This document shows, in pieces, positions 12,643 through 36,607 of a DNA stretch of 64,000 nt. How positions within the stretch are numbered: the first letter of the stretch is position 1; the number at the start of each line of letters is the position of its first letter. Position numbers and translations under genes: made by a program. The notes beneath the pieces were generated by a model, which saw nothing but the letters and a program-made list of their open reading frames with translations, ran no database searches and was not told where the DNA came from. The stretch spans positions 6,166,709 through 6,230,708 of the forward strand of contig CP043547.1 in assembly GCA_009664345.1 (NCBI GenBank), given 5' to 3'. This DNA comes from Planctomycetales bacterium 10988. Its GTDB lineage: Bacteria > Planctomycetota > Planctomycetia > Pirellulales > Pb10988.

Positions 12643-13243
12643 CAGTCGATCATTTCCTCTTAAAACAACTACGAAATGGCCTACTTACAGAGTATCAGAG
12701 GAACGGAAATTTGGAAACTAGGACTCTAGCCAATTCTCCCGAACCAGAAATCTTTGGGAAAAGTGCTTGATTCAGCACTTCAAGAATGTATTTTATCGGA
12801 AAAGTATCCTTTGGTAAAAAAAGTAGACTTTTTCTTCCGTCGGCCAGAAATCTCTTTTTACAAGTTCTAATTGGTGAAGTAAACTTAGTTAAAACAGGGC
12901 GAGAAATTGGATTACGCTTCATCTACGGTTGTGGATTCGTACCAAGGGCCTTAGTGGGCTGCTCCGTCAGGGGAGTGATGCCATTTTCTGACGAAAGTCC
13001 GCCGTTTTTCTCTCTTTACGATTAATCCATTGGAAACGGTTGTTCGTTCTTCCCTCCGTAGGTCGATAAGCGTTCTATAAACGTGGGTGAATCGTCTTTG
13101 AATCGATGGGTCACCATCTTATTCGGCTTGAAACTCCTTTCGGCTTCAAATGCTGAATGACTAGAACTTTAGAAGATTAGTCACCACCTGCATTTCTAAG
13201 GTTCGCCATGCTATTTATTGAGGATTTTGAAGAGGAATCAATT
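12643..13243. other. Intergenic region before the CSLREC protein
   Basis: About 600 nt, AT-rich in the first half. It contains a 7-bp hairpin AAGTGCT-N6-AGCACTT near 12759-12778 and a GTCAG/CTGAC pair around 12968-12995. No gene-like frame, tRNA or recognised riboswitch was seen. Promoters for the divergent neighbours are expected here. Confidence 0.4.
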
Positions 13244-16036
13244 ATGAAATGGTCTCGTCACCGTCATCCTCTTGGCCTCCGGCAGCTTGCCAATCTTGCC
13301 CGTTCCCCTCGTGAGCGAACGGCTCAGCATTGTTCGTTGCAACTCGATCAGTTAGAAGACCGATCGATGTTGGCGACGTTTGCCGTCGATAGCATGGTGG
13401 ATTTACCGGATAACAATGTCGGCGATGGTATCTGCATGACGGCAGCCGGGGATTGTACCCTGCGAGCCGCTGTTCAAACCGCCAATGAGACCGCTGTTAG
13501 TGACACGATTACTCTGGGAGTTGGGACCTTCATTCTCGATCAGGTCGGGGTTGCACCCGATGACGATACCATTGGGGATTTAGACATTGTTCATGATTTG
13601 GTCATCGAAGGGTCCGGCATTGGACAGACCATCATCGATGCTTCGGCTTTGAGCGACCGAATCTTCCAGCTTGGCTCCGGGGTGAATCTTACTTTACGAA
13701 ATTTGACTCTCCAGAATGGGACCGCTGTCGAGAAAGGTGGAGCAATTTTTAGTGAGGGGTTTCTCCAAATCGAGAATGTGGAATTTCTCAATAATACGGC
13801 CGAAGGCGTGGATGGCGAAAGGATCGGAGAGTCTGGCTCCGACGCCTTTGGGGGGGCCATTTATCATCTCGGTTCCGGTTCGGTCACGATTTCAGGTAGC
13901 CGCTTTGTCAATAATCAGGCCCTGGGCGGGGACGCCTTTCCGGACTTTGCCTCTTCTGAAAACTCCCCCGGTCGTGGCGGTTGGGCTTATGGAGGAGCGA
14001 TTTATGCAGAATTCTCAGACGATATTATCATCGAATCGACGGAATTTTTACAGAATATCGCACAAGGGGGTATCGCGGAACTTGCTGATCGAGCAGAGCC
14101 GAGCGGATCGGCCTTTGGCGGAGCAATCTCGCTTCTCTCGACGGTTTCCTTGACCGTTCAACAAAGCTTTCTCTTTCAGAACCAAGCCATCGGAGGACAG
14201 GCCCCGGTTCAATCGACGGATACGCTTGATATCCCTTTGGCTGGAGATGCTTTTGGAGGGGGGATTTCCGCACTTTCCGTCGAAGGGTTGATCATTCTAG
14301 AAACAACCTTGGCTGAGAATGTGGCTCAAGGTGGTGGTGGCAATCAACTCCCCTCAGGCTTTTCACCGGGTGGGATCGGTTTCGGGGGAGGACTTCACTA
14401 CGAGGCCGATTTTTTTAGTTCTGCGTTTTCAACCTCTGCATTGATCGGCAACAGTACCTTTTCCGCAAATCAAGCTATTGGAGGATCAGGCGGCGGTGTC
14501 GAGGGCGTGGGAACCGCGAAGGGTGGCGGGATCTACAGTGCCGCCGGTGAGTTCTCCTTGGTTCATACCACGATTGTTCTCAACTCCGCTGAAAGTGGGA
14601 TGGTAGGGACTCTCGGAGGCGATTCGACAGGGATTGCAAGAGGCGGTGGATTTTATCGCGAAGAGGCTTCCCCATTTGGTACGGTTCCAGGAATCGTCAG
14701 TGTGATCAACACCATTCTGGCCGAAAATACCGTTTCCGGAGATACCGCTGAGGGACCAGATGCCTTTGGAGAATTGAACGAAGGCGGTGGCGATGTCTTG
14801 AATAATCTCCTAGGTATTGGCGATGGGGCGACGGGTATCTCAGATGGAGTGGATGGAAACTTGGTAGGCACCGCGGGTTCTCCTATCGATCCTCAATTAG
14901 GGCCGCTCCAGATTAATCTTGGCCCAACCCCTACCCATAAACCTGAGGAGACAAGCCCCGCGGTGGATGCCGGAACAGATGTCCTGATCGCCATGTTTGA
15001 CAGTGATCAACAGCTTGAGATGCGCCCACAAGGAGACGCACCGGAGATCGGAGCCGTGGAAATTACTCCGGAAGACGACCCAGGTGATGATCCCGGAGAC
15101 GACCCAGGTGATGATCCGGGGGATGACCCAGGAGACGATCCCGGCGATGATCCAGGAGATGACCCAGGCGATGATGATCCTGGGGACGATCCAACGGATG
15201 TTCCTCAAGATGTGCCTCTTGATGAGATCCCTCCGATTGATCCAGGGGACCTGTATACGCCGGAATTCCCGCAGACCACCCCCGTTCCTGTGCCTCCGAC
15301 CGCGTTCGAATTCCCTCTCTTTGAAACACAGAATACGTTCACGACGCGGAACGATTACCCGGGGATGTTGAATATTCCCATGAACTCCGGAGAGGTCGTA
15401 AATTATGCACAACTTAAACTGTATGTGGTCGAACAAGGTGAGCTTGAGTTGATTTGGACTTTGACCATTAGTCGAAATAATTTGGGAGAAGTGAAGACAG
15501 GCGTGGGCTTCTTTACTCGCATCTTGGCTGGGTTGGAAGATGGCTTGTACCGAATCACGTTGACACGAAATTTAGAGGAATCCCTTGTTTGGGAAGGAGA
15601 AGTGCCACTTGTGCAAAGTGCGATTCTCGAATTGCAGCGAGAGTTTGAGCGAAAGGTAATCGACCCACTGCAAGGAATTCGCCGCAATTTGGAAGACGAG
15701 ATCACGTTCGATTTTGAAGAACGCTACCCCTATGATCCGGCGGTGTGGGCCAAGGAATCCTTCTGGGCGGATTGGCTTAAGAAGCAGGAAGAAGAACGCT
15801 TCCAAGAAGCCGGCTATCCGACACCCTCTTCGAATCGATTTGTGGGAAGTGATGAACCCTCGGGGCAAACCGAATCAAATCCAGTAGAGATTCTCGGAGG
15901 GATTGAGGAGGCGGGTGCTGCCACGCTCTTGTTGGCAACCGTATTGGCTCCTTGGGCACGACAACGGCAGAAAAAGAAGGCCTGTTGGAACTCTTCGGTC
16001 GAGTCGCTGATGCAAAAGCTTTCCGAAGAAGGGTAG
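13244..16036 (+). CDS. Secreted CSLREC-domain parallel beta-helix surface protein (930 aa)
   Basis: The N-terminus is basic and then carries LEDRSMLA, the short motif common at the export end of planctomycete giant surface proteins. A CSLREC domain follows (about 50-90): GDGICMTAAGDCTLRAAVQT. A Gly/Asn-rich right-handed beta-helix (about 100-560) has repeated GGAI and NNTA/NNQA turns, as in pectate-lyase-like polymorphic outer-membrane proteins. Next are about eight tandem GDDP units (about 612-650), an all-beta domain, and a C-terminal hydrophobic stretch with basic residues (LLLATVLAPWARQRQKKK) that may anchor it. The start at 13244 was preferred over 13208 because GAGGAA lies 7 nt upstream. 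Likely adhesin or surface structural role. Confidence 0.8.
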   Translation: MKWSRHRHPLGLRQLANLARSPRERTAQHCSLQLDQLEDRSMLATFAVDSMVDLPDNNVGDGICMTAAGDCTLRAAVQTANETAVSDTITLGVGTFILDQVGVAPDDDTIGDLDIVHDLVIEGSGIGQTIIDASALSDRIFQLGSGVNLTLRNLTLQNGTAVEKGGAIFSEGFLQIENVEFLNNTAEGVDGERIGESGSDAFGGAIYHLGSGSVTISGSRFVNNQALGGDAFPDFASSENSPGRGGWAYGGAIYAEFSDDIIIESTEFLQNIAQGGIAELADRAEPSGSAFGGAISLLSTVSLTVQQSFLFQNQAIGGQAPVQSTDTLDIPLAGDAFGGGISALSVEGLIILETTLAENVAQGGGGNQLPSGFSPGGIGFGGGLHYEADFFSSAFSTSALIGNSTFSANQAIGGSGGGVEGVGTAKGGGIYSAAGEFSLVHTTIVLNSAESGMVGTLGGDSTGIARGGGFYREEASPFGTVPGIVSVINTILAENTVSGDTAEGPDAFGELNEGGGDVLNNLLGIGDGATGISDGVDGNLVGTAGSPIDPQLGPLQINLGPTPTHKPEETSPAVDAGTDVLIAMFDSDQQLEMRPQGDAPEIGAVEITPEDDPGDDPGDDPGDDPGDDPGDDPGDDPGDDPGDDDPGDDPTDVPQDVPLDEIPPIDPGDLYTPEFPQTTPVPVPPTAFEFPLFETQNTFTTRNDYPGMLNIPMNSGEVVNYAQLKLYVVEQGELELIWTLTISRNNLGEVKTGVGFFTRILAGLEDGLYRITLTRNLEESLVWEGEVPLVQSAILELQREFERKVIDPLQGIRRNLEDEITFDFEERYPYDPAVWAKESFWADWLKKQEEERFQEAGYPTPSSNRFVGSDEPSGQTESNPVEILGGIEEAGAATLLLATVLAPWARQRQKKKACWNSSVESLMQKLSEEG
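15073..15190 (+). repeat. In-frame 12-nt tandem repeat coding GDDP
   Basis: About nine degenerate copies of a 12-nt unit (GGTGATGATCCC-like, synonymous changes between units), one with a 3-nt insertion giving an extra Asp. Encodes a (Gly-Asp-Asp-Pro)n acidic spacer, possibly calcium-binding or a stalk. Not a CRISPR array: there are no spacers. Confidence 0.85.
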
Positions 16037-23412: not shown

Positions 23413-23964
23413 TTATAAGTTTAGTACAGTCGAGCCAGGCGTCACGATTTCGATTAATTCGATGGCAGGTTGATGATTGCATTCAATAATGGCGGTTCTG
23501 CCATAGACAGGGTTCGGGCAGTTTTCGAACCATTCATTCAGTTCGGGGCCGGGCTCAACTTGCCAAAGATTGAGAAGGTGAATACTCCGCAACACGTTGT
23601 GTTCAATCAAGATACGTCCGAGAGGGGTCTCTTCTGCTCGAATCCGTTCCGCGACTTCCTCCGCGACTTGGCTCAGATCGATCCGCATGATCCCCCATTG
23701 AACGACTTCTTGATTATCCTGGCGAACGAGTAAAATCCGGCGAGCATAATGATTTTCCGAAACATTCTTCTCCAAGACTTTTACATCGACAAGGGACCGA
23801 TGAAACGCCTCGACGGTCACCGTCATGTGGTGCTCATGAGCCAAGAGATGACGATACGGCTCGGGCACCTCGGTTGATTGCACGTGCGAGAATGTCCCTA
23901 ATTCCTTGGGGTCGGAAAAAAAGAGGCGGATCAACTCCTCCAAGCGTTTGGTCATAAGCTTCAT
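23413..23964 (-). CDS. Chorismate-lyase-like (UbiC/DUF98-type) protein (183 aa)
   Basis: The pattern fits the chorismate pyruvate-lyase fold. A central strand pair ARRILLVRQDNQEVVQWGIM (UbiC has an R.v.L.g.g.pv.ar segment) is followed by EETPLGRILIEHNVLRS, matching the PLG..LF...R stretch, and by a C-terminal GRTAIIECN..PAIELIEIVTP, where the Glu sits at the UbiC catalytic-Glu position (R....gkPl...E.flP). If active, it would release pyruvate from chorismate to give 4-hydroxybenzoate. It lies 51 nt upstream-side of the prenyl synthase stop, inside the lipid-like cluster; chorismate plus a prenyl donor suggests an aromatic-isoprenoid product (inference). Divergent from E. coli UbiC. Confidence 0.6.
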   Translation of the reverse strand: MKLMTKRLEELIRLFFSDPKELGTFSHVQSTEVPEPYRHLLAHEHHMTVTVEAFHRSLVDVKVLEKNVSENHYARRILLVRQDNQEVVQWGIMRIDLSQVAEEVAERIRAEETPLGRILIEHNVLRSIHLLNLWQVEPGPELNEWFENCPNPVYGRTAIIECNHQPAIELIEIVTPGSTVLNL

Positions 23965-24015: not shown

Positions 24016-25863
24016 TCACTGGCTCTTCGGCATCGAAAGTGAAACCATGTTTTGTGCAGGCTGATCAATGGTCAATCCCGAGCGATCGAGGATCGAATCC
24101 ACCAGATAATAGAAGAGTCGGCGTAAGGCCTCCGGCTCTAGTTCATCGGCGATTGCCTCGGCTCGTTGTTGATATTTATCTACCAAGCGACCTGCTTTTT
24201 GGAAAACATTGGCCTTTAAATACAAAGCACGAACTTGAGGCAGATCGGCTGGTTTGCGGGGATTTCGCGACATGATCTCCAAAAGCGTTTTTTGATCTTT
24301 TTCGGGAAGTCCCTCAAGTGCCAAGGCCCACAAGACGGTCGGACGGCCCCCGAGAATATCTCCGCCGGCCGAAAGTTTGTTGTCTTCGTCACCATTCCAG
24401 TCTTTCAAATCGTTGAGAATTTGGAAGGCGATGCCTAGATGCTTGGCGAAGTTGCTGAATTTCTCTTGATAGTCGCTGACCTCCCCTGCGAGGCGTGCCC
24501 CGCAATAGAGGGCGGCTTCGAAGGCCGGAGCGGTTTTCAAAGCATAAATCTTCAAGGCATCAAGGGGACGCAGTTGCTTATCCATCGCATCTCGCCACAT
24601 CAATTCCGCCCCTTGTCCTTCGCTCAAGCGGGTGTGGGCTTCGGCGAGTTTATCCAAAATATCCGCAGCGACATCCGGGCCGAGACTTGCTGCTTCTCGG
24701 CTGACGAGGCGATACCCTAGTCCAACGAGATAATCCCCGACGTTGATGGCCGTTGGAATTCCCCAGCGGCGATGCATTGTTTCATTTCCATAACGATACT
24801 GGTCATCGTCTTCAATATCGTCGTGGACGAGCGACGCTTTATGGAAAACTTCAATCGACATTGCGGTCCGCAAAACGGAATCGGGGAGGTTCTCGGCGGC
24901 TTCTTGCCCGTTATGTTCCGTCGCTTCCGCCCCAGTGAGGGCATCGTAAACCGCCAGGGTTCCGAACGGACGGAAATGCTTTCCTCCTTGTGCGAGAAAG
25001 TCGTAAGCCAGAATCTCCGTGCCGGCGACCGGGTCAAGCTTGACATTTTCATCAAGAGTCGGAATCGGTTCGGGGTGCCGAACTCGGGGGGCAAGTTGGT
25101 TGAGCTTGTTTGGCTCAAAGATATTCGCCGCCGCCCGCATCAGGTGAAGATAAGTTCGTGTTTGTGTTTTCGGAGGTTGATGCTCGATCTTGATCATGTC
25201 CATGACCAAGTCTTCATCGACCGAAGTATTGCGGCAATCGCTGGAGAGGAGCGGCACAGCCATGCAAGGGATGCCAGCCAACAGGAGTTTATCAATCGCT
25301 TTTTCCAGCACATTGAGGCAAGCGACCCCAACAATCGCATCGACATGCCCACTGACAATGATCTTCAATACGATCGGAGTTCCTTCCGATACCAGGACCT
25401 TATAGCCCATATCTTCGGCGGTTCCCCGGAAGTCAGCGATCGAGCAGGCCCCGCATTGGCGACAATCGAGACCGAACTCATCATAATCCGCCGGACAACC
25501 AGAGGGATTTTTCAAACAGTGCGGCATCAAGAAAAGACGACGCTGCGGGGGAATCGCGGCGATATGATCTCGCCAAAACTCCGAAGCAAGCGAAACCATT
25601 GTCCAGCCGACATAGCCTTCGGAAAGATTCATCTGTTCCAAAATCGTCCGGGCGTGGGACTCCATCTCGTCTTTGTTGAGAGGGTTCGATTTGTCGAGGG
25701 TAGCGGCATACTCTCGACATTTGGCAATCATCGTATCCCGCATGGCCCGAGTTTCAGGAACCAACTTTAGATGGCGGGTGCTGCGACGCTTGCGACTTTT
25801 CCCGGCGGGAGCAGCGGCATTCTCAGCATCAGTCGTCGTATTGGAAGCAGGAACAGTAGCCAA
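24016..25863 (-). CDS. DUF116-polyprenyl diphosphate synthase fusion (615 aa)
   Basis: Two domains. Residues about 40-245 are a DUF116 domain with its cysteine pattern (MPHCLKNPSGCPADYDEF, then DCRQCGACSI, and further conserved Cys), suggesting iron-sulfur binding. Residues about 285-600 are a trans-isoprenyl diphosphate synthase: GGKHFRP, the first Asp-rich motif HDDIEDDD near 352, and a second Asp-rich motif written NDLKD near 485 instead of the usual DDxxD. It should elongate allylic diphosphates with IPP; chain length cannot be read safely. The start is TTG with AGAGG before it; the first in-frame ATG would cut into the conserved region. It follows the terpene cyclase gene by 80 nt. Confidence 0.85.
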   Translation of the reverse strand: MATVPASNTTTDAENAAAPAGKSRKRRSTRHLKLVPETRAMRDTMIAKCREYAATLDKSNPLNKDEMESHARTILEQMNLSEGYVGWTMVSLASEFWRDHIAAIPPQRRLFLMPHCLKNPSGCPADYDEFGLDCRQCGACSIADFRGTAEDMGYKVLVSEGTPIVLKIIVSGHVDAIVGVACLNVLEKAIDKLLLAGIPCMAVPLLSSDCRNTSVDEDLVMDMIKIEHQPPKTQTRTYLHLMRAAANIFEPNKLNQLAPRVRHPEPIPTLDENVKLDPVAGTEILAYDFLAQGGKHFRPFGTLAVYDALTGAEATEHNGQEAAENLPDSVLRTAMSIEVFHKASLVHDDIEDDDQYRYGNETMHRRWGIPTAINVGDYLVGLGYRLVSREAASLGPDVAADILDKLAEAHTRLSEGQGAELMWRDAMDKQLRPLDALKIYALKTAPAFEAALYCGARLAGEVSDYQEKFSNFAKHLGIAFQILNDLKDWNGDEDNKLSAGGDILGGRPTVLWALALEGLPEKDQKTLLEIMSRNPRKPADLPQVRALYLKANVFQKAGRLVDKYQQRAEAIADELEPEALRRLFYYLVDSILDRSGLTIDQPAQNMVSLSMPKSQ

Positions 25864-25943: not shown

Positions 25944-27836
25944 TTAATTCGAAGAAGCAGTCGAACAAAGCAAATCGTCGGGGATGGAAATCGCTCGTTC
26001 GCGGCAAGCGGTCGCCACCGCTGAGAGCGTCATCACCAACGGATAAAGCTTTTCATAATACCATAATTTAGCGAAGTAAAATCCGATTGGCGAGCATCGT
26101 CGATAGCAGCCGGATTCAATTTGCTGCAACAACCAGTCGAGTCCTCGATCGATCGCAGCCCGTCGTTCGTCCGTTTGTGTTTTCTCAAAAGCCAGCAAAG
26201 CCTCAAGTGCCAAAGCCGTCTCTTCGATGCTTGATTGCGGAGCGAAATTCGTTTCGTTCTTGTAAGTGGCGATCTGTTCGGAAACGGGAGCATTCCCCCA
26301 ACCGCCATCGATTTGTTGTTGCGAAAGAAGCCAATCCCGGGCCTGGGTGGCCGTTTCACATGCCAACTTTCCAGCATCGCGGTAGGCAAGCAACACCTTG
26401 GAAGTTCCATAAATGGGGTTGGCTTCTTCAACATGAAACTGATTGCCAAACCAGAGCGGGAACCACGAACCATCCTCTTTTTGTTGCTTGGCGAGATACT
26501 TCCAACCAGCGGTGATGGCCAGTTCAATGCGGTCCAAGATGGCGACATGCTGGGCGAGATTCTCTTGAAAATGCGTTTGCCAAACGAGCATCGCCCTGAT
26601 TGCGTGAGCAGTAATATCGGTGCTGCTGCGGTCAAAAGGGAGAGTTCCCCAACCACGGCAAAATGTTGGCCAGCCGCCATCGCGATTTTGCAGATTCAAT
26701 AACCATTGAATTCCGAGCAAAGCCGATTGTTCGTTCTTCGCGAGAATCTCCGGCGTCGCTTGGTCTTGCAGGCAAGATTCGTGGGCAAGCGCCAGCAAGG
26801 CTCCGGAAGTATCATCTGCATCCGGCACGCCGCCACTGAGGTCCGTCCAAGCCCAACCGCCAGGGGCCGCTCCGGTGTAAGGATGAACGGCCAAATGTTG
26901 ACAAGAGCGAACCCAATCCCACAGCGTTTCGTCGTTGCATTCGGCGGATTCCGGGGCATGAATGGCCAAGGCATTCACGGAAAGCGTCGTGACCCAAGTG
27001 GCCAAATTCGTATCAATCGGCCAAGAACCATCTTCACGAATGGAGTCTCTGAGAAAATCCGCACATCGTTCGGTAACAGGGTGTTCGGCCCGACCGGCTC
27101 CGACCAAACTCATCGCTACGAAACTTGTCAGCGGGGTGGCTTCTAGAAATCCTCCACTTGTCGGTTGAATTTCGACGAGCTTCGCCAAGGCTTTTTGCAT
27201 CGCTTGATTACGAATGATCCGAGTGATGGGATTGAGCGGTTGTCCTTTTTCATGTCTGACAAGACCGATCGCGATCAAAGCAGGCAGGGCGTAGCTGACC
27301 ACCGGAAGTTGAAGCGGACCGAGCCAAGATTGCGGCAAGCAAGCCATCTCAAAAGGCAGACGCGAAACTTCTTTCCAATCCACCAGACCCGCGAGAGCTG
27401 CATTGGTGAGGATCGGTACCGCGAAGGTTTTGTCCTTGCCGTATCGCTTGCGAATGCCCTCCACTCCGCCTTGTTTCGCGAGATAGGAATCCAAGGTGTT
27501 TAGCAATTCGGGATAGCGATCTTCGACTTCGGCCAATCGCAAGGCCGACTTCACCAACATACTCGTGGCAATATTTGACAAATTCCGGTCGGTATCGCCG
27601 AAGCCGCCATCAGGATTTTGTTGCTTTGTGAGCCAAGTCAAACCCCGTTCGATCAACTCGTGATCTTCGGTGGAGGAGGTCGCTTTACCTAAAATCGACA
27701 AGGCACTAATGGCCGTCGCGGTCGAGAGTGCGGAGGCGGAGAGTTTGCCCTCCCAGTGACCTTCACTCTTTTTTTCCGCCAAGAGATCACTTCGAACGCG
27801 GAGAAACGCTGCTTGCAGCGCGGCATCGGTCGGCAT
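25944..27836 (-). CDS. Class II terpene cyclase, squalene-hopene-cyclase-like (630 aa)
   Basis: An alpha-alpha barrel protein with many QW-type repeats (e.g. GLTWLTKQQNPDGGFGDTD, LLNLQNRDGGWPTFCRGWG). It keeps the class II protonation motif as PDADDTSG near residue 337, equivalent to the DXDD of squalene-hopene cyclase, and ends with the family-typical LWYYEKLYPLVMTLSA. Length (630) equals bacterial squalene-hopene cyclases. Substrate is unknown; adjacency to a prenyl synthase rather than squalene synthase suggests a prenyl chain or prenylated compound (inference). The start at 27836 has AAGGAG upstream; the longer frame to 28028 overlaps the ferredoxin gene and lacks resemblance. Confidence 0.88.
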   Translation of the reverse strand: MPTDAALQAAFLRVRSDLLAEKKSEGHWEGKLSASALSTATAISALSILGKATSSTEDHELIERGLTWLTKQQNPDGGFGDTDRNLSNIATSMLVKSALRLAEVEDRYPELLNTLDSYLAKQGGVEGIRKRYGKDKTFAVPILTNAALAGLVDWKEVSRLPFEMACLPQSWLGPLQLPVVSYALPALIAIGLVRHEKGQPLNPITRIIRNQAMQKALAKLVEIQPTSGGFLEATPLTSFVAMSLVGAGRAEHPVTERCADFLRDSIREDGSWPIDTNLATWVTTLSVNALAIHAPESAECNDETLWDWVRSCQHLAVHPYTGAAPGGWAWTDLSGGVPDADDTSGALLALAHESCLQDQATPEILAKNEQSALLGIQWLLNLQNRDGGWPTFCRGWGTLPFDRSSTDITAHAIRAMLVWQTHFQENLAQHVAILDRIELAITAGWKYLAKQQKEDGSWFPLWFGNQFHVEEANPIYGTSKVLLAYRDAGKLACETATQARDWLLSQQQIDGGWGNAPVSEQIATYKNETNFAPQSSIEETALALEALLAFEKTQTDERRAAIDRGLDWLLQQIESGCYRRCSPIGFYFAKLWYYEKLYPLVMTLSAVATACRERAISIPDDLLCSTASSN

Positions 27837-27906
27837 GGCGTTTCTCCTTTCTATTGGCAAGTGAGTTGTTTTGTGAAGTTGGTTGGTTTCAAGAACACAT
27901 GGTGAA

Positions 27907-29022
27907 TTAAAGGTCGATGGAGTCGAGTTCGTCGATGAGGTCATCAAGTTCATCTTTAGGTTCGTCTTGCCGATTTTCTTGACGTTTGGGAACTCCGACG
28001 GTTGCCCCGACGGCTTCGCGTCCATCAAGCATCAATTCGCGATCCCGTTCTTTCACCGCGGTATCGAGTGCCGAGCCTTCCGGGGCACCGAAGAGTTTTG
28101 AAAGATCGATCTTCAGGCCGCCAGCTTCTCCCATGGGACTTCCGGCGATGGCAGGGGTTTTGTGTTGCGGGAAGATGATGGCATTTTCAGGACAGACACG
28201 ACTGCAAGCAGGGCAGCCTTTGCGGCAATTGTCGGGTTGCTCAACGAGAATCGAATCGACTTTATCGACGCCATAAACCCCGAAAAGACAGAAGTCGAGG
28301 CATTCCAAACAATTCGTACAGCGGCTGAAGTCGATGACCGGATACCAGCGGCGTTTAGTTTGTTCTTCAATGCGGATCGGTTCGACGGTCTCGGGGCTGG
28401 CCTCCTCCGACCCATTTGTTAAAGGAGGAGTTCCATTCTTCGCGGCAACCTCTCCGAGAATCGGCAGGCTCGCTGGCTTCCCATTTCCATTTCGTTTGCC
28501 AGGCTCTTCCGCATTGAGATAGCGGTCCATTTGCTCCGGCTTCGGCTTTCCTTTGATCCAATCATTCAAGGAAAGCTGCACAAGCGGGGTCGATGCCTCT
28601 TTGACAATTCGACGGATTTCTTCCAGATAATCGTCGACATTTTTGGAAGCTTTCAAGTTGAGATGAAAGATCGTTCGCTTTGAGTTGGATTCCTCAGGAG
28701 GCGGCGCTTGTTCGGTTTCTTCCTCTTCTTCCCCATCGGAAACCAGGGCGGACTTGCCAAATTTCCCTTCAATCCCATTGCGATGCAAAATCCAATGCGC
28801 GGCACGGGGGAACAGCCAACTCCCAATGATAAACGTTCCCGAGAGATTTTTCAGGCAGAGCATGCCGGTTCCATCGGGCTTGAGGTCGTAAAGATGAGGA
28901 ACGACCGTCGCTTCCATATTCGGTTCCATCATCACCGCGGTAATGAGGTCTTCCTCAAAACGACGTTTGACGGGGCTATTGCTTTGACCTTGTGAGAGTA
29001 CCACCGTGATTTTCGGGGCCAT
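27907..29022 (-). CDS. Multidomain protein with a 2[4Fe-4S] ferredoxin module (about 371 aa)
   Basis: Residues about 1-90 are folded but unrecognised (APKITVVLSQGQSNSPVKRR); a charged linker follows. The ferredoxin module near 230-285 has CTNCLECLDFC (CxxCxxCxxxC) and CRKGCPACSRVCP (CxxxCxxCxxxC), so two [4Fe-4S] clusters are expected, the second with one extra residue. The C-terminus is acidic (DELDDLIDELDSIDL). An electron donor for cluster partners (radical SAM enzyme, DUF116 fusion, reductase) is plausible. The start is ATG 29022, or a TTG three codons earlier at 29031. Downstream is the terpene cyclase after 70 nt. Confidence 0.8.
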   Translation of the reverse strand: MAPKITVVLSQGQSNSPVKRRFEEDLITAVMMEPNMEATVVPHLYDLKPDGTGMLCLKNLSGTFIIGSWLFPRAAHWILHRNGIEGKFGKSALVSDGEEEEETEQAPPPEESNSKRTIFHLNLKASKNVDDYLEEIRRIVKEASTPLVQLSLNDWIKGKPKPEQMDRYLNAEEPGKRNGNGKPASLPILGEVAAKNGTPPLTNGSEEASPETVEPIRIEEQTKRRWYPVIDFSRCTNCLECLDFCLFGVYGVDKVDSILVEQPDNCRKGCPACSRVCPENAIIFPQHKTPAIAGSPMGEAGGLKIDLSKLFGAPEGSALDTAVKERDRELMLDGREAVGATVGVPKRQENRQDEPKDELDDLIDELDSIDL

Positions 29023-29203
29023 GGGGTTCAACTCATTTCAGGGGGGTGAGAGAAGGGAATGGTCCACAGAAAGTAAAGGCATTATTTTAATCGCCTACGA
29101 GTCGGAATGCGAGAGAGTCGAAGCAAAACAAAGCATTTTAAGGAAGGTTTGTTTTCAACTGTTTACAAAATCGTGGCTTGATCTTCATACGTAATAAGAG
29201 TCT

Positions 29204-29656
29204 CTAATACACTTGGCCTTTAATGGTTCGTTGAGCAACTTCCCAACTAGACTCCAAGTGTTGTAAATATTCATCGATGGAAAGGAGTGGCTCACCGCTG
29301 CCTTCAATTTCAAAGAGCCATCCCTTGTCATATTTGTCTACATTAATTGCCGACGGATCGGAAAGCAATGCTTCATTAAAGATGGTCAACGTTCCCGAGA
29401 TCGGGGAATAGAGCCCGCTTTCCGCTTTGGAACTTTCTATATCTCCGATCTCTTGACGTTGTTGCACGGGACTTTGTTCATCCACATGCCATTCTAAAAA
29501 ATAAACATCTTGTAAAAGCCGTACCGCATACGCAGAAAAACCAAAGCGGAAACCCTTTTCGATTGGTAAGGCCCACATATGATTTTTTGAATAGTTGCGA
29601 TCTGTGGGAAAGTGAGCTTCATACTTTCCCATCATGAAAGTTTTGACATCGCTCAC
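29204..29656 (-). CDS. Glycine-cleavage H-protein-like carrier protein (150 aa)
   Basis: Resembles GcvH: the lipoyl-lysine loop appears as GDIESSKAESGLYSPISGTL (family: G.ESVKA.SD.YSPVSG), with the modified Lys conserved near residue 76, followed by GWLFEIEGSG (family GWL.K). The N-terminal ~35 residues are non-standard. No T-, P- or L-protein gene is nearby, so a role in glycine cleavage is unlikely; it may be a dedicated lipoylated carrier, as H-like proteins are in other specialised pathways. It starts with GTG in a 4-nt overlap (GTGA) with the stop of the radical SAM gene, showing translational coupling. Confidence 0.8.
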   Translation of the reverse strand: MSDVKTFMMGKYEAHFPTDRNYSKNHMWALPIEKGFRFGFSAYAVRLLQDVYFLEWHVDEQSPVQQRQEIGDIESSKAESGLYSPISGTLTIFNEALLSDPSAINVDKYDKGWLFEIEGSGEPLLSIDEYLQHLESSWEVAQRTIKGQVY

Positions 29657-30960
29657 GTATAGCGTATCCCTTGGTGTTCGGCTTCAAAAAAGGCGGGAAG
29701 TAGCCCATCCACACGCAATAAACCTTCACGGGTTAATTGAATTCGATCCGGCTCATAACTTAACCAACCTTCTTCTTTATATTTATCCCATTCGGCCTGC
29801 CATTCGGAGAGAATATTGACCCCGAATTTGTTTTGAAAATATTGAACGTCGAGCCAACCTTTTTTCATTTGCAAAATCATTTCACGCACCAATAGTTGAT
29901 GCTCGGTTGGTCGGAAGGCTCGTCCTAAAGGAAGTTCTCCTTTTTCGGTCAAGGTTTCCATATAACCTTTCCAATCAGGAAGGTTTTGATAATGGACGCC
30001 TGACACATGACCAAAACTTGCAATCCCGGTGGCAAGTAAATCGGAACCTTTCCACAAATGATCACGGTAAGAAAACTTTACATTCTTGCTTTTCTTCACC
30101 ATGGTGTAAGCCGAGGAAACTTCATAACCAACGGCTTCCAATTCTGCAAAGGCATAGTCAACCCATTCGCGTTTCAACGTCCAATCAGCAACGGGAATCG
30201 GTTTGCCTTCATGAAGAACCCCTTGTGAAATCACGGTATTAAAGGGAAGTTCCATTTGATAGATCGTGACACTATCCGGAGACATCTCGATCGTTTTACG
30301 AATGTTTTCTTTCCAATTGTCCCATGTTTCTCCCACCATGCCGGCGATCAAGTCGATGTTGACACTGTCAAAGTTGGCTTCAACGATTGAATCCCACGCT
30401 TTATACACTTCACCACTTAAATGGGCGCGGCCGTTTTCTTCTAAAATTCCATCGTGAAAGTTTTCTACCCCGAGACTCAATCGGGTGATGCCGATTTCTT
30501 TTAATGTCTTTACTTTCCGCGGAGTCAACGTACCGGGTTCACATTCAAACGTCACTTCTTCCGCTTGATCCCAACTGATATTTTTTCGCAAACTGTCAAC
30601 AACGGCTTCCAATTGTCGCGGAGCCAAGAACGAAGGCGTTCCTCCCCCAAAATAAACAAAGCGGAAAGGACGCCCTCCCATCACGGGAAGTTTACTAACA
30701 AGTTCAATTTCTTTATCGAGCGCGGCTAAATAATCGCGAACTTCCGATTGACGTTTATCAGTAAAGACTCGGAAGTAACAAAATTTACAACGCTTGCGAC
30801 AGAACGGGATATGTAAATAAAGACCCAGCGGAACTTCTGCCGGCGGGGCCTGCATCACGGAGGTCACTTCTTGCAACGATTCCGACTTCCACGCAGAGTA
30901 AGGCGGATAGTTCGAGATAAAATAGCTGCCGACTTCCGTTTTTTTTGTTTCGGTAGCCAT
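29653..30960 (-). CDS. HemW-like radical SAM protein (435 aa)
   Basis: Radical SAM TIM-barrel enzyme of the coproporphyrinogen-III-oxidase-like (HemW/HemN) group. LGLYLHIPFCRKRCKFCYF near residues 45-64 gives the CxxxCxxC cluster motif in the family's usual HIPFC context; FVYFGGGTPSFL follows about 60 residues later and LSLGVENFHDGIL is the typical later segment. The C-terminal domain (MILQMKKGWLDVQYFQNKFG) also matches HemW-like proteins. Authentic HemW is a haem chaperone, but coupling to an H-like carrier suggests a specialised role. Start at 30960 (GAGGAA upstream); the frame to 30999 is less likely. Confidence 0.88.
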   Translation of the reverse strand: MATETKKTEVGSYFISNYPPYSAWKSESLQEVTSVMQAPPAEVPLGLYLHIPFCRKRCKFCYFRVFTDKRQSEVRDYLAALDKEIELVSKLPVMGGRPFRFVYFGGGTPSFLAPRQLEAVVDSLRKNISWDQAEEVTFECEPGTLTPRKVKTLKEIGITRLSLGVENFHDGILEENGRAHLSGEVYKAWDSIVEANFDSVNIDLIAGMVGETWDNWKENIRKTIEMSPDSVTIYQMELPFNTVISQGVLHEGKPIPVADWTLKREWVDYAFAELEAVGYEVSSAYTMVKKSKNVKFSYRDHLWKGSDLLATGIASFGHVSGVHYQNLPDWKGYMETLTEKGELPLGRAFRPTEHQLLVREMILQMKKGWLDVQYFQNKFGVNILSEWQAEWDKYKEEGWLSYEPDRIQLTREGLLRVDGLLPAFFEAEHQGIRYT

Positions 30961-31089
30961 AAGGCATTCCTCAATGAGTGTTGCTTGTTGTTTCAACAAA
31001 AGAAAGATTCAAATTCAATAGAAAATAAAAAGTTGAATCGAGTCTTTTGTTAATTTTAAAATTTATTGAGTGGGGATGAAAGTTTTTGT

Positions 31090-32295
31090 TTATTCTCCAG
31101 CAAAACAGAGAACTTCCCCATTTCCGTTGGCAATAACAAGGGCATTCTCCGCGATGGCAGGCGAACCGAGAAAATCGCCACCGGCTTCATATTCCCAAAC
31201 GGCTTCTCCACTTTTGGCATCCAGGGCATAAACTGTACCGCGAGGGGAGCCGAAATAAACACGACTTCCTGCAATCACCGGCGAGCCATCAATGCCGCGA
31301 CGCACTGGAAAGGACCAAAGTAACTCGGAGCTTTTCGGATGAATCGCTTTTAGCAATCGATCGCGACCTCCGACAAAGATTGCCTCTTTCGAGATCGCCG
31401 CGGAACTTCGATACGGGAGCGAACGCTCAGGGTTGCGGAATTCCCAAACAATGGAAAGTTCTCGCCAATTCACACAATAAAAAGTATCGACCAAATTACC
31501 GACGTATAATAAATCCCCACTGACCGCCGGGGTCGCTGCCGCCTGCCCGCCGATTTGAATATGCCCGATTTCTTTGCCTTCGTTCAGATTCACGACGCGG
31601 AGAAGTTCATCACAGCCAGCAATGAAAGCCCGATCTTCAACCACGGTAATCGAAGCATGGACGGGGCCATCGGTCTCCAACTTCCAGGCGACTTCGCCAC
31701 TTTCTCGCGTGACACAATAGAAACATTGATCATAAGAACCGAAGAGAACTTTATCTTGATAGAAATTGGCACTCGAAATAATTTCCGCATCGGTTTCGAT
31801 TCGCCAAAGCTCGGTTCCTTTATTACGATCCAGCGCATAAAAAATCCCATCGGAATCCCCGATATAAACTTGATCGTCTTTTACGGCAGCAGCGGCCTGG
31901 AAACCGCCTTCTACCTGAAAACTCCACTTCTCTTTGCCTGTTTTCAAGTCAATGGCATAGAGTTTACCATCCGGAGCCAAGCCACCAACATAGACAACTC
32001 CCTCGACAATCACCGGGGTCGATTCAAAGGAGGCTTCCAGATCGGCGAATTTCCAGCGAACCGCAAGTTCATCCGGCAACGGATTCTGGGCAACTCCGGT
32101 AGATTGGGCATTTCCGCGAAAGACGGGCCATTCCTGAGAGGTTTGAATGGAAGACTCTAGCGAAGCGGTTTCTTCGGCGGTGACAAAATTATCAACGCAA
32201 AACAAGGAAATGGCGAGCACTGTCGCGAAGTGAAGTGCCGTCCGCGTTTTCTTCCTTGTCGAGGTTGATTGTTGAGTGGCGTAGGTTGGTTCCAT
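31090..32295 (-). CDS. Exported PQQ-type beta-propeller protein (401 aa)
   Basis: An N-terminal basic stretch and hydrophobic segment (ALHFATVLAISLFCVDNFVTA) form a probable signal peptide. The rest is seven or eight PQQ-like blades with recurring G.lYALD...G...W....., e.g. GKLYAIDLKTGKEKWSFQVE and GTVYALDAKSGEAVWEYE. No quinoprotein dehydrogenase catalytic motifs are visible, so it is more likely a scaffold like BamB or a sensor-type propeller. It sits on the cluster strand between the radical SAM and alcohol dehydrogenase genes, with gaps of 130-240 nt; its link to the pathway is positional only. Confidence 0.85.
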   Translation of the reverse strand: MEPTYATQQSTSTRKKTRTALHFATVLAISLFCVDNFVTAEETASLESSIQTSQEWPVFRGNAQSTGVAQNPLPDELAVRWKFADLEASFESTPVIVEGVVYVGGLAPDGKLYAIDLKTGKEKWSFQVEGGFQAAAAVKDDQVYIGDSDGIFYALDRNKGTELWRIETDAEIISSANFYQDKVLFGSYDQCFYCVTRESGEVAWKLETDGPVHASITVVEDRAFIAGCDELLRVVNLNEGKEIGHIQIGGQAAATPAVSGDLLYVGNLVDTFYCVNWRELSIVWEFRNPERSLPYRSSAAISKEAIFVGGRDRLLKAIHPKSSELLWSFPVRRGIDGSPVIAGSRVYFGSPRGTVYALDAKSGEAVWEYEAGGDFLGSPAIAENALVIANGNGEVLCFAGE

Positions 32296-32534: not shown

Positions 32535-33689
32535 TTAATAGATCGATTCGTAAATCGTTTGAAAATCGTCCTTCTTCACCGGGCGAGGATTAAAAGTACC
32601 CGTCCATTGCTTCGCGGCGTCTTCCGAAAGTTGATCGAGCACGTCGAGTGGGATCGAGCAATCTCGCAGCTTCGTAAATAACTTGGCGGAATGGGCTTGT
32701 TCGGTTACCCAATTTGCCAAAACCTCCGCAGCGATCTCATTTTTTTCATCGAAAGGAATTTCAGAAACTTCTAAAAGCTCTTCATACCAACCGTTGATTT
32801 TGGGGTCTTCGCCATTGAAGCGAATGACGCCGGGCAAGGTCAGCGCGATCGCTTGACCGTGAATGATATTAAAACGGGCTGTCAAAGGATTCGCACAGGC
32901 ATGCGCGGCCCCGAGCATCGAATTTTCAATCGCCATGCCCGCCCAACTTGCTCCCAAAAGCATCGTGCCTCGGGCTTCCAGATGAAGCGGTTCCGCCAAG
33001 ATTTTCGGAAAGCTCGCATGGAGATATTTCCAGGCTTGCCGACTGTACATCAAGGAGACGGCGTTTCGCGGCTTGGTAACATAAGTTTCCAACGCATGGG
33101 AGATCGCGTCAATCCCCGTAACAGACGTAACCGTAGAAGGTTGTGTCAAAGTTAGAGCTGGGTCGAGTAGGGCCATCACACAAGCGGCCTTCTTATCTCC
33201 ACAGGCCATTTTTACGTGAGTTTCCTCATCGGAAATGAGGGCAAACGATTGCGTTTCGCTCCCGGTTCCAGCGGTGGTGGGAATGGCAATCATGGGGAGC
33301 ATCGGCTTGGTCGCCTTATCTTTTCCCCAATAATCTTGCATTTTTCCGCCATTGGTATAGATGAAATTGAGCCCTTTGGCACAATCCATCGAACTTCCGC
33401 CCCCGATGCCAATTAGCAGATCGGGCCGGAACTCGTTCGCAACTTCCAGGGCTTGTTGCACGGTGGCCGTTGAGGGATTTTCCTCGACTCCGTCAAAAAT
33501 CTCCCATTCTAAAGAAGGATTCGCTAAGGCATTGGTCGCACGGCCGATATGACCTGCTTTCAAAATGCCAGGGTCAGTGACTAATAAGATACGTTTGGCT
33601 TTGAGTTGGCTGACGTAATCCCCTAAATGATCAAGTTGGTTGGCACCAAAAATGATCCGCGTCCTCGGTTGAAAATCAAAAGCATCCAT
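32535..33689 (-). CDS. Iron-containing (group III) alcohol dehydrogenase (384 aa)
   Basis: NAD(P)-dependent aldehyde/alcohol oxidoreductase. GIGGGSSMDCAKG (about 93-105) binds the dinucleotide, and PTTAGTGSETQ (about 137-147) is the family motif. Metal ligands are visible as Asp in LDPALT (about 193) and His in GIDAISHALE, GAAHACANPL and NIIHGQAIAL. Length 384 is typical. In context with the acyl adenylase and acyl reductase upstream, it would reduce the aldehyde to an alcohol (inference). A terminator lies between it and the ALDH-like gene, so it is likely on a separate transcript. Confidence 0.92.
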   Translation of the reverse strand: MDAFDFQPRTRIIFGANQLDHLGDYVSQLKAKRILLVTDPGILKAGHIGRATNALANPSLEWEIFDGVEENPSTATVQQALEVANEFRPDLLIGIGGGSSMDCAKGLNFIYTNGGKMQDYWGKDKATKPMLPMIAIPTTAGTGSETQSFALISDEETHVKMACGDKKAACVMALLDPALTLTQPSTVTSVTGIDAISHALETYVTKPRNAVSLMYSRQAWKYLHASFPKILAEPLHLEARGTMLLGASWAGMAIENSMLGAAHACANPLTARFNIIHGQAIALTLPGVIRFNGEDPKINGWYEELLEVSEIPFDEKNEIAAEVLANWVTEQAHSAKLFTKLRDCSIPLDVLDQLSEDAAKQWTGTFNPRPVKKDDFQTIYESIY

Positions 33690-33865: not shown

Positions 33866-35308
33866 TTACGCCATGGCGGCGGTTAATTTTTCTTCCGGCA
33901 TTTGGAAGGCACGTGCGCGGAAAAGGAAGTCGATGATATTGCCTTCGTGCGGTTGCAGCCAATCGAGTTTGATCGTCGGGATCGGACCGAGATTCAAGCG
34001 GTCGATATTCGTGGCACTGATCAAGTTCGATTGAAACTGAGTATCGTTGGTAATCGCGGAGCAAACGAGGGTGTATCCCATTCGCTCGATCATTTGATCT
34101 TGCGGGCATTCGACCACGGAGACAAAGGGGAACATGAATTCCTTCGAGGCAATGGCCGCTTCCGGCGAATCACAATGGGCGACGACCGGGCGGAGATAAC
34201 CGTATCGTTCTTCTTCAATGAAGCGAGTCCCATACGATTCGGTCATGTGGGTCACGCCTTCTTGCTCCATATCTTTTTCGAGCATTCCCCAAATCGCTTC
34301 CGCAGCACCAGGAACCGTAAAGGCAGCCAAGGCCGCATCGGGATCGGAAGGCGGTTTGACTTCGATGGGGCCAATGCGTTCGGCGATGGCGGCGGCGATC
34401 TCTTTGGTGTGTCGCGGTGCCCAAATCCCCGAGCAATTGATGCAACCACGTCCACTGTTGAGATAGACGCTATCGACCATCATGTCGAGGTATTGTTCCC
34501 AGTTATCGACTTCATCTTCGCCGAGAATGATTTTGCTGAAGCCAGGACCATGGACCTGAATGCGGGGATCGCCTTTATATTTTTCGATCGTATTCGTTCC
34601 GCCAAAGATCATAGAACGATCGCAGTGGGTCATTACCGCGGCCCCCATGTCCGTCTTGCCGGGATAGATCGAAATCGCTTCCCGCGGAATTCCGGCGGCA
34701 AAGAAAGCTTCGGCCATCCGGAAAGGCGTCCAAATCTCTTGCGAACCCGGTTTGATAATCAGACCGATTTGCAACGGAATGACGGGTAGCCACAGCGTAT
34801 GAACCCCCGGCGAGTTCGAAGGCAGAACCATTCCCAAGGCATTTGTTTGAGCTTGATAACTGACGGTGACGCCACGATCTTCTCGGCCAAACCCCCGGCT
34901 GAGGATATTCAGATCAAGTCCCCGCGTGAGGGCATCGAGAATCTTATCCATATTGTGCAAGACGAAATGATTCTTCGTCATATTCCCTTTGCACAAGTGT
35001 TCGGGAAGTCCGGTCGTGGCCGATTGTTGTTTAACAAAATCTTCCGGGGTTTGCTCCGCTTCGCCGATCGGCAAGGTCGCATTGAGGTACAAATCCCCGG
35101 CTTTTTTCATCATCTCGATCAAGTCGGAGATCGGAATCTTGCGGAGGGCTTCGCGGGCCTTGAAAGATTTTCGAATATCACGACCGAGCAAACCGCCATT
35201 GGCTTGGCTGACTTCCGCGATCGGTTCGCCTGTCGCGAAGTGGACGATTTCCTGTTTTTCCAGACTTTTATAAGGCTTTCCCCAGCGAAGGGCAGGAATA
35301 TGAAACAT
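33866..35308 (-). CDS. ALDH-superfamily acyl-CoA/acyl reductase, LuxC-like (480 aa)
   Basis: Aldehyde dehydrogenase fold: a nucleotide-binding region with MVLPSNSPGVHTLWLPVIPL and IIKPGSQEIWTPFRMAEAF, a GGTNTIEKY loop, and a catalytic-cysteine segment NSGRGCINCSGIW near residues 290-300. The N-terminal ~120 residues are long for a simple ALDH and resemble LuxC-type acyl reductases. It should reduce an activated acyl or aroyl group to the aldehyde. The adenylase gene lies 150 nt upstream on the same strand and a terminator follows directly, so these two form a compact unit. Start ATG 35308 preferred over GTG 35314, with CGGAGC upstream. Confidence 0.82.
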   Translation of the reverse strand: MFHIPALRWGKPYKSLEKQEIVHFATGEPIAEVSQANGGLLGRDIRKSFKAREALRKIPISDLIEMMKKAGDLYLNATLPIGEAEQTPEDFVKQQSATTGLPEHLCKGNMTKNHFVLHNMDKILDALTRGLDLNILSRGFGREDRGVTVSYQAQTNALGMVLPSNSPGVHTLWLPVIPLQIGLIIKPGSQEIWTPFRMAEAFFAAGIPREAISIYPGKTDMGAAVMTHCDRSMIFGGTNTIEKYKGDPRIQVHGPGFSKIILGEDEVDNWEQYLDMMVDSVYLNSGRGCINCSGIWAPRHTKEIAAAIAERIGPIEVKPPSDPDAALAAFTVPGAAEAIWGMLEKDMEQEGVTHMTESYGTRFIEEERYGYLRPVVAHCDSPEAAIASKEFMFPFVSVVECPQDQMIERMGYTLVCSAITNDTQFQSNLISATNIDRLNLGPIPTIKLDWLQPHEGNIIDFLFRARAFQMPEEKLTAAMA

Positions 35309-35458
35309 GAACACGCTCCGTATTGTCGGTAAAATGAAATTCAGGTCGCGACCGCTTTTTACAGGTCGGATCGGACTCGTATTGTATGTTGTTTCTACTT
35401 ATCTACGACCGCAGCCGCGATTTTATGGACATCGTAGCAATTTGTTGGACGCCGCCGA

Positions 35459-36607
35459 TTAATAAACCCCGACGGTGGTTCCTCCCGCGAGTTTCGAGAA
35501 AGGACGCACGCCGCTGATTCCATCCCAGGGGTATTTTTCATAAGGCAATTCGCGTTCGCCTTCGTCGCGTTCCAGAAATCCGGGGATGAAAACCTCTTTA
35601 GTAAAGGTATAGAGCTTTGCCCGACCGGTGTCCCCGTAATCGACGACATCTTTATGACTATCGGGATCGACAACCTCCACGACCGCCCGAGGTTGCGGGG
35701 CATAATAAGCGATCGTGAAATCTTCTTCTTCCGTCACAGGTCGGGAGCAAGCCAGCCCCATCAGGGTGTTTCCATAAGTCGGCGTCATATAAACCCCACT
35801 CTCTTCGGCAGGGCCACCGAAATACTCTTCAATACAGAAGCGAGTCCATTGCGGAGTAAATTCCGTCCCGCCGGAGAAAATCCCGGTGATGCCAGAATCT
35901 GGAATGCTACTTCCTTTTTTCTCTAACGCTTCAGCAAGATTTTCGAGAAGTTTCGGAGTCGTAAACATGCACTTGATATCATGATTGGCACCGAGAATCG
36001 TCATGGCCTGATCGATGACGTGTTGCTTGTAGGCTTCGAGGTGTTCCATCCACCCTTTTTTGATCAGCTTCACCACCCAACGCGGATCGAGGTCCACGCA
36101 GAAGCAAATCCCTCCGCGGTATTGGCAAAGATGTTCCACGGCAAGTCGTAAACGACGCGGACCGGAAGGCCCGAGCATCAGCCAGTTCGAACCCTTGGGA
36201 AAGTACTCGTCCGGCAAGGTATGGCTAAACATTTCATAGTCAATGCGAAAGTCATCGACCACCACCCGCGATTTTGGGACTCCGGTGGTTCCGCCGGTTT
36301 CAAAAACATAGGTCGGCTTCCCTTCGAGACCTTTCGGAATCCAACGCTCGACCGGACCACCCCGCAACCAATCATCTTCAAAGAGGGGGAATTTTTTCAC
36401 ATCTTCAAAGCAGTTCACCTCCTTCAAAGGATCGAAATCAAGCGTCTCCGCCTTTTTCAACCAAAAAGGAGAACCTGTCTCAGGATTGAAGTGCCATTGC
36501 ACGGTCTCGCGGACGTGGGCATCGAGTTCTTCTTTTGCTTGCGAGGCCTTGGAGGCGAGTTCTGCCGAAAGCATAGAGTCAGTCACCGGGGGGATACTCC
36601 TTGACAT
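35459..36607 (-). CDS. AMP-forming acyl ligase, LuxE / phenylacetate-CoA-ligase-like (382 aa)
   Basis: ANL superfamily member: VFETGGTTGVPKSRVVVDDF (about 108-127) is the nucleotide-binding loop, MTPTYGNTLMGLACS (about 268) the A5-like (Y..T) motif, and DYGDTGRAKLYTFT (about 318) the A7-like motif. The C-terminal subdomain is short, as in LuxE acyl-protein synthetases; PaaK proteins are usually about 430. It would activate a carboxylic acid as acyl-adenylate for the neighbouring reductase. Substrate could be a fatty acid (LuxE analogy) or an aromatic acid (PaaK analogy, with a chorismate-lyase-like gene in the cluster). It is the first gene of the minus-strand block; a GTG at codon 8 is a possible alternative start. 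Confidence 0.78.
   Translation of the reverse strand: MSRSIPPVTDSMLSAELASKASQAKEELDAHVRETVQWHFNPETGSPFWLKKAETLDFDPLKEVNCFEDVKKFPLFEDDWLRGGPVERWIPKGLEGKPTYVFETGGTTGVPKSRVVVDDFRIDYEMFSHTLPDEYFPKGSNWLMLGPSGPRRLRLAVEHLCQYRGGICFCVDLDPRWVVKLIKKGWMEHLEAYKQHVIDQAMTILGANHDIKCMFTTPKLLENLAEALEKKGSSIPDSGITGIFSGGTEFTPQWTRFCIEEYFGGPAEESGVYMTPTYGNTLMGLACSRPVTEEEDFTIAYYAPQPRAVVEVVDPDSHKDVVDYGDTGRAKLYTFTKEVFIPGFLERDEGERELPYEKYPWDGISGVRPFSKLAGGTTVGVY

Follow-up and report, generated by a model that had tools for sequence, protein, structure and literature searches.

The window, a 64,000-nucleotide stretch of the single-contig, 6.65-Mb genome of Planctomycetales bacterium 10988, carries eleven minus-strand genes in one run from position 36607 down to 21905. 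Among them is an open reading frame for a chorismate-lyase-like protein (P0001, 23413-23964, minus strand, 183 aa, ATG start), which is the one match of its kind in the whole genome. A preliminary description of this DNA had placed the gene between a polyprenyl synthase and a flavoenzyme, and both neighbours were recovered. On one side lies a fusion protein of DUF116 and a polyprenyl diphosphate synthase (24016-25863, 615 aa; Pfam PF01976 and PF00348), and on the other a halogenase-like flavoprotein (P0003, 21905-23170, 421 aa) that scores 99 bits against Pfam Trp_halogenase and has a WFWYIP motif at residue 217. The run starts with an EhpF-like adenylate-forming enzyme (P0002, 35459-36607, 382 aa), which matches the EhpF structures 3hgu/3hgv over residues 11-375 (E 8e-40) and is directly followed by an aldehyde-dehydrogenase-family protein (33866-35314, 482 aa; Pfam Aldedh). 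Next come an iron-containing alcohol dehydrogenase (32535-33689, 384 aa) and a PQQ-type beta-propeller protein (31090-32295, 401 aa), both named from family annotation, a HemN/HutW-like radical SAM protein (29653-30999, 448 aa) with the PDB relatives HemN (1olt) and NocN (9p2u), and a GcvH-like (glycine cleavage H-type) protein (29204-29656, 150 aa; PF01597). A putative 4Fe-4S protein (27907-29031, 374 aa), named from weak Fer4 matches that are all below cut-off and with no family assigned to its N-terminal part, and a squalene-hopene-cyclase (SHC)-like protein (25944-28028, 694 aa as an open reading frame that overlaps the adjoining gene; PF13243/PF13249) complete the set. The latter resembles SHC weakly (87 bits); a much stronger match (341 bits) is encoded at C1:176590-177648, and the copy in the cluster may act on a different substrate. 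Elsewhere in the window, a plus-strand open reading frame of 942 aa (13208-16036) contains a run of D-P-G-D repeats.

The AlphaFold2 model of the lyase-like protein (pLDDT 92.4, pTM 0.88) has a chorismate-lyase fold, and superposition did not point to a different one. Its top fold match is AF1396/DUF98 (2nwi; Z 16.7, rmsd 2.0 over 144 residues), which Foldseek also detects (2nwi_B, E 9e-8). The chorismate lyase UbiC superposes with Z 11.7 and rmsd 3.4 over 146 residues (1g81), and Foldseek finds the product-bound E. coli enzyme (1jd3) at E 4.5e-6; identity to UbiC is about 18% across the aligned part. On the same model UTRA domains score Z 11.9, level with UbiC, so the fold by itself cannot assign a function. 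Family models capture the protein poorly. PF01947 (Rv2949c-like) is the sole Pfam family with E < 0.1, at 17.2 bits against a cut-off of 22 for the single sequence (E 0.005), and only 4 of 31 aligned relatives match it at E <= 1. Neither the Pfam UbiC family (Chor_lyase) nor any regulator or DNA-binding family is among the 13 families matched by these 31 sequences at E <= 1. NCBIfam models gave zero matches, and a PDB search with the single sequence returned no meaningful match and did not find AF1396. A profile of the 31 sequences placed AF1396 (2nwi) first (E 0.002), followed by an unrelated nucleoporin (0.014). Direct profile comparison gave a probability of 80% and E 1.4e-5 for UbiC versus 0.6% and E 0.1 for the UTRA protein PhnF, the one control used, which was not aligned over the domain. 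It was on this comparison that we dropped a UTRA regulator as the main reading, which the fold scores by themselves had left standing.

The conserved residues are more telling. Fourteen columns are invariant in the 31 aligned sequences, that of the window included (L41, H43, M47, T48, E52, R75, L79, G91, P114, G116, L119, G155, R156 and E172). When UbiC of E. coli K-12 was aligned with this set under three MAFFT settings, 12 of the 14 columns were identical in two of the runs, the exceptions being H43, which faces a gap, and G91, which faces a threonine of UbiC. In the third run E172 is shifted off the UbiC glutamate and 11 columns agree. R75 thus corresponds to UbiC R77 in all three alignments and E172 to UbiC E156 in two of them (numbering including the initial methionine); we take these to be the catalytic R76 and E155 of the literature numbering without methionine. 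The hhalign alignment with UbiC stops before E172. The catalytic Glu/Arg pair is kept in the homologues, with R75 and E172 invariant in 31/31 sequences, and as 12 of 14 columns are shared, this pair included, the residues favour UbiC over UTRA. The initial view of a chorismate-lyase-like protein is borne out by the UbiC-type fold together with the invariant Arg/Glu pair. The encoded protein is very probably distantly related to the enzyme that converts chorismate to 4-hydroxybenzoate, and this predicted enzymatic role is well supported by sequence and modelled structure.

Relatives of the lyase-like protein are widespread among planctomycetes and, with the invariant columns, show that the open reading frame is no product of chance. 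A single-sequence search of 294 phylum genomes, own included, found them in 43, the 42 positive genomes among the other 293 encoding relatives of 24-54% identity. With a profile search the number is 46 of 294, three of these marginal; the marginal matches, which we did not count (G070, G146 and G161; E 6e-5 to 1e-3), are partial and lie within long open reading frames. Within the window's class, relatives are encoded by 108 of 148 genomes, own included, a count that takes in a mere 25-residue piece at a contig start (G418). Among the matches listed for the phylum sample, nearer kin first, a relative is present in 16/16 genomes of family f4 and 3/3 of family f2, and one f3 genome is without; the 40 class genomes that lack it include at least three of f3 and at least 17 of f102. 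This spread across families argues for a standing gene of several families and against local acquisition. Its presence in most sampled members of the class suggests a shared, undescribed product built from 4-hydroxybenzoate. As far as the available parts of the searched literature extend, they describe neither a planctomycete chorismate lyase nor such a cluster, and name no product.

Gene order was compared in regions of at most 20 kb containing the lyase gene from 39 of the 42 other genomes (G110, G117 and G281 were left out). On the same strand and within 600 bp of the lyase gene, a radical SAM gene is found at 23 of the 39 loci, the flavoprotein gene at 21 and a prenyl synthase gene at five; at eight loci the lyase gene has none of the other cluster genes nearby. 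A fixed association with cyclase and prenyl synthase is rejected as a general rule, given the low count for the prenyl synthase and the lyase tree, on which its adjacency requires three changes, at least two of these changes being forced by well-supported branches. Cyclase, prenyl synthase and lyase are contiguous in five of nine further loci (L031-L035). In distant lineages (e.g., L077 and L078) the order begins with DUF3311, a sodium:solute symporter, the EhpF-like enzyme, aldehyde dehydrogenase, alcohol dehydrogenase, propeller and radical SAM protein, continues with the lyase, the flavoprotein, a GT4 glycosyltransferase, a 4HBT-type thioesterase and a membrane protein for which Pfam gives no reliable family, and ends with a PaaK-like CoA ligase, an ABC ATPase and a candidate FtsX-like permease, named by appearance. 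GcvH-like and iron-sulphur proteins accompany cyclase and prenyl synthase in a few lineages (3/39 loci). A second prenyltransferase/cyclase toroid protein of about 310 aa is encoded at L041:12601-13521 and also at L031, L032 and L035; this short toroid protein adjoins the thioesterase and ABC genes in lineages having the cyclase.

Genome-wide co-occurrence identified the steadiest partners. The EhpF-like enzyme is encoded in 82 of 294 phylum genomes, namely 43/43 with the lyase versus 39/251 without (Fisher P 4e-29, kinship ignored). For the PaaK-like CoA ligase, with a query taken from a lyase-bearing genome, the test set comprised every one of the 43 lyase genomes plus 17 of the 39 genomes that have an EhpF-like gene without the lyase. 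These 17 contain close EhpF-like relatives, the remaining 22 having EhpF-like proteins at 39% identity or less. A ligase of at least 200 bits is present in 43/43 lyase genomes, in G281 as a partial match of 220 bits, versus 4/17 EhpF-only genomes (P 5e-10, kinship ignored) and 5/59 genomes with neither gene, that is, in 9 of the 76 tested genomes that lack the lyase. The PaaK-like protein matches models of bagremycin/ferroverdin and flexirubin acid ligases, below cut-off. Within family f57, G107 has both lyase and ligase, and G071 (83% complete) has no lyase and a ligase match of 51 bits only. Nine clusters (L094-L097, L099, L102, L103, L105 and L106) keep the pathway core in genomes without a lyase profile match. 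In L094, L096 and L097, where the lyase is gone from the cluster, the ligase is gone from its place too; the genome of L096 (G203) has the ligase elsewhere. In nine genomes of the window's class (L114-L122) the ligase is encoded at a distance from the cluster, and the sole other cluster-type match in its surroundings is one weak GcvH match in G205. Lyase and CoA ligase track together while the core occurs without them, and so they look like a pair that feeds the aromatic part into a core that also exists without both. What is new beyond the preliminary description is how widely the gene occurs in the class, along with its EhpF-like and CoA-ligase partners. Family f45 (e.g., L110 and L111) contains a distant EhpF-like branch of 33-38% identity that is outside a cluster context in the two loci fetched.

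The two direct neighbours also occur in genomes without the lyase. The flavoprotein is present in all 60 tested genomes, 43 with the lyase and 17/17 without, and relatives of the DUF116/prenyl synthase (E <= 1e-60) in 48 of the 60, comprising 35/43 genomes with the lyase and 13/17 without. They occur in 20/20 tested genomes of families f1, f2 and f4, and in G140, G183 and G186, which lack the lyase, the DUF116/prenyl synthase gene is 4-6 kb from the flavoprotein gene. Among solved structures, those most closely related to the flavoprotein are named halogenases (8zop, 3e1t, 5bul, 5bva, 3i3l (CmlS) and PltA). The WxWxIP motif is kept in 29/29 copies, including that of the window and copies from lyase-free loci (the truncated L033 copy was left out). 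K72 faces a lysine in 8zop, 3e1t, 5bul and 3i3l, a position that is presumably that of the catalytic lysine of flavin-dependent halogenases, and this lysine is kept in 28 of the 29 copies, L068 being without it. Models of GG-reductase and QhpG/LodB also match, below cut-off. The halogenase-like neighbour of the preliminary description is thus supported as a resemblance only, and these relatives, the motif and the lysine make halogenation by this protein plausible.

If the lyase-like protein makes 4-hydroxybenzoate, respiratory quinone synthesis is not its obvious destination. Two proteins of the VitK2_biosynth family, which we take to be the family of MqnA and MqnD, are encoded in the genome and point to the futalosine route to menaquinone. 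To our knowledge, bacteria that make menaquinone by this route have no general need for 4-hydroxybenzoate. The pair of proteins agrees with the original expectation of menaquinone in planctomycetes, as does the available part of a survey of 1,294 proteomes, which lists its five planctomycetes as menaquinone (MK) producers with MqnA, MqnC and MqnD in five each, MenC in four and UbiC in none (PMC3914697). The same part reports no proteome with both the futalosine route and UbiC (PMC3914697), against which pattern a lyase-like gene in futalosine bacteria stands out, though it is not UbiC proper. A search for a UbiA-type prenyltransferase elsewhere in the genome had been suggested as a check. None of the genome's five UbiA matches is in the window, and four UbiA-family proteins pass the Pfam cut-off in a whole-genome search, none of them clearly dedicated to 4-hydroxybenzoate. 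L079 is a heme O synthase by cut-off, L081 resembles decaprenyl-phosphate phosphoribosyltransferase, below cut-off, and L082 (C1:1982418-1983071) is an EboC-like UbiA protein (192 bits against a cut-off of 250) that hints at an ebo-type cluster in the genome. L080 passes a general UbiA-like model and stays below cut-off on the specific ones, with 231 of 420 bits for MqnP and 266 of 364 and 223 of 392 bits for 4-hydroxybenzoate polyprenyltransferases. L080 is probably the menaquinone enzyme, and it could take 4-hydroxybenzoate; it and the EboC-like protein are the possible prenyltransferases for this acid.

We consider it probable that a divergent chorismate lyase feeds a conserved planctomycete pathway that uses 4-hydroxybenzoate for something other than ubiquinone. 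In this pathway, the lyase-like protein would split chorismate into 4-hydroxybenzoate and pyruvate, as its fold and active-site residues suggest, and the PaaK-like ligase encoded elsewhere in the genome would, judging from co-occurrence and family, probably form 4-hydroxybenzoyl-CoA. Reduction of a carboxylic acid in the pathway via the aldehyde to the alcohol could fall to the EhpF-like enzyme together with the aldehyde and iron alcohol dehydrogenases; the acid would be either 4-hydroxybenzoate or that of a partner chain. We did not adopt action of the EhpF-like enzyme on 4-hydroxybenzoate itself, as lyase-free clusters exist and the CoA ligase tracks the lyase better. The halogenase-like flavoprotein may oxidize or halogenate an intermediate, and in this lineage a terpenoid part may be joined on, as suggested by the prenyl synthase and the cyclase-like gene. 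More tentatively, and at somewhat less than an even chance in our estimation, chorismate lyases of a distinct branch would start a so far undescribed aromatic pathway that most members of the class have in common, in which CoA-activated 4-hydroxybenzoate would be joined to a reduced, possibly halogenated lipid or terpenoid chain to give a general cell constituent.

The lyase-like protein might instead bind chorismate in the same fold and catalyse another reaction, yielding another hydroxybenzoate isomer or acting on a different enolpyruvyl substrate. The low identity to UbiC would fit this, as would H43 and G91, which are invariant and yet unmatched in UbiC, so that the pocket may differ; UbiC's M-T, P-L-G, G-R and E motifs are all retained, as is the Arg/Glu pair, and we regard such a shift as unlikely. 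Less likely still, and the most improbable of the alternatives, is a non-catalytic UTRA-type protein that senses a metabolite of the pathway. The equal fold scores of UTRA and UbiC speak for such a sensor; the invariant catalytic residues, the Pfam matches without a DNA-binding family and the failure of PhnF, as the one control, in profile comparison speak against it.

Other alternatives concern the product. The prenylated aromatic compound suggested in the preliminary description, quinone-like or otherwise, fares poorly. A prenyl synthase adjoins the lyase gene and L080 has its sub-cut-off scores on 4-hydroxybenzoate polyprenyltransferase models, but the window is without UbiA, L080 scores about equally on MqnP models and is the only MqnP candidate for the futalosine route, and the other three UbiA proteins resemble different enzymes; we give prenylation of 4-hydroxybenzoate a small chance. 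A similarly small one falls to the gene set being the missing pathway for alichondrichlorin-type compounds. Alichondrichlorin, known from Alienimonas chondri, is an ester formed by 4-hydroxybenzoate with a chlorinated fatty acid, and the available text of one source gives the genes for it as unknown (PMC12078418). A likely source of 4-hydroxybenzoate, a PaaK-like CoA ligase and a halogenase-like enzyme would suit such a molecule, whereas occurrence in 108 of 148 class genomes is an unusual breadth for one such compound and the flavoprotein is also present in all 17 lyase-free genomes tested.

A lyase-like gene in so many genomes of the class, with steady partners, points to a shared product, and the cluster provides defined genes for finding it. 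If the more tentative reading of a 4-hydroxybenzoate pathway common to most of the class is correct, this product would be a general cell constituent as opposed to a rare secondary metabolite, and the bacteria that contain it would not require 4-hydroxybenzoate to make their quinone. The gene set is also a candidate for the alichondrichlorin genes and may bear on this planctomycete 4-hydroxybenzoate ester, as far as the available text on it allows (PMC12078418).

Compared with known systems, the lyase-like protein resembles E. coli UbiC in fold, in the Arg/Glu pair and in the M-T, P-L-G-R, G-R and E motifs, and differs from it in most of its sequence and in length (183 residues versus 165); in E. 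coli ubiA adjoins ubiC, whereas here no UbiA gene adjoins the lyase gene. It is closest in fold to the Rv2949c-like/DUF98 proteins (PF01947; AF1396), and unlike members of that family it scores below the Pfam cut-off. EhpF and EhpG reduce an aryl acid, and their arrangement in the griseoluteic acid (phenazine) operon is mirrored here by the aldehyde-dehydrogenase-family gene that comes directly after the one for an EhpF relative. The available excerpt of one report tabulates ehpF as AMP-binding and, next to it, ehpG as a member of the aldehyde dehydrogenase family (PMC11278526). In contrast to that operon, no phenazine gene is among the eleven annotated genes of the cluster. The flavoprotein shares the WxWxIP motif and the lysine position with flavin-dependent halogenases (8zop, 3e1t, 5bul, CmlS 3i3l and PltA) and differs from them in being related, below cut-off, also to the GG-reductase and QhpG/LodB models. 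Planctomycete strain 10988 is named in the accessible text of one source as producer of 3,5-dibromo-p-anisic acid (PMC12078418), a halogenated phenolic compound, as the product of the proposed pathway may also be.
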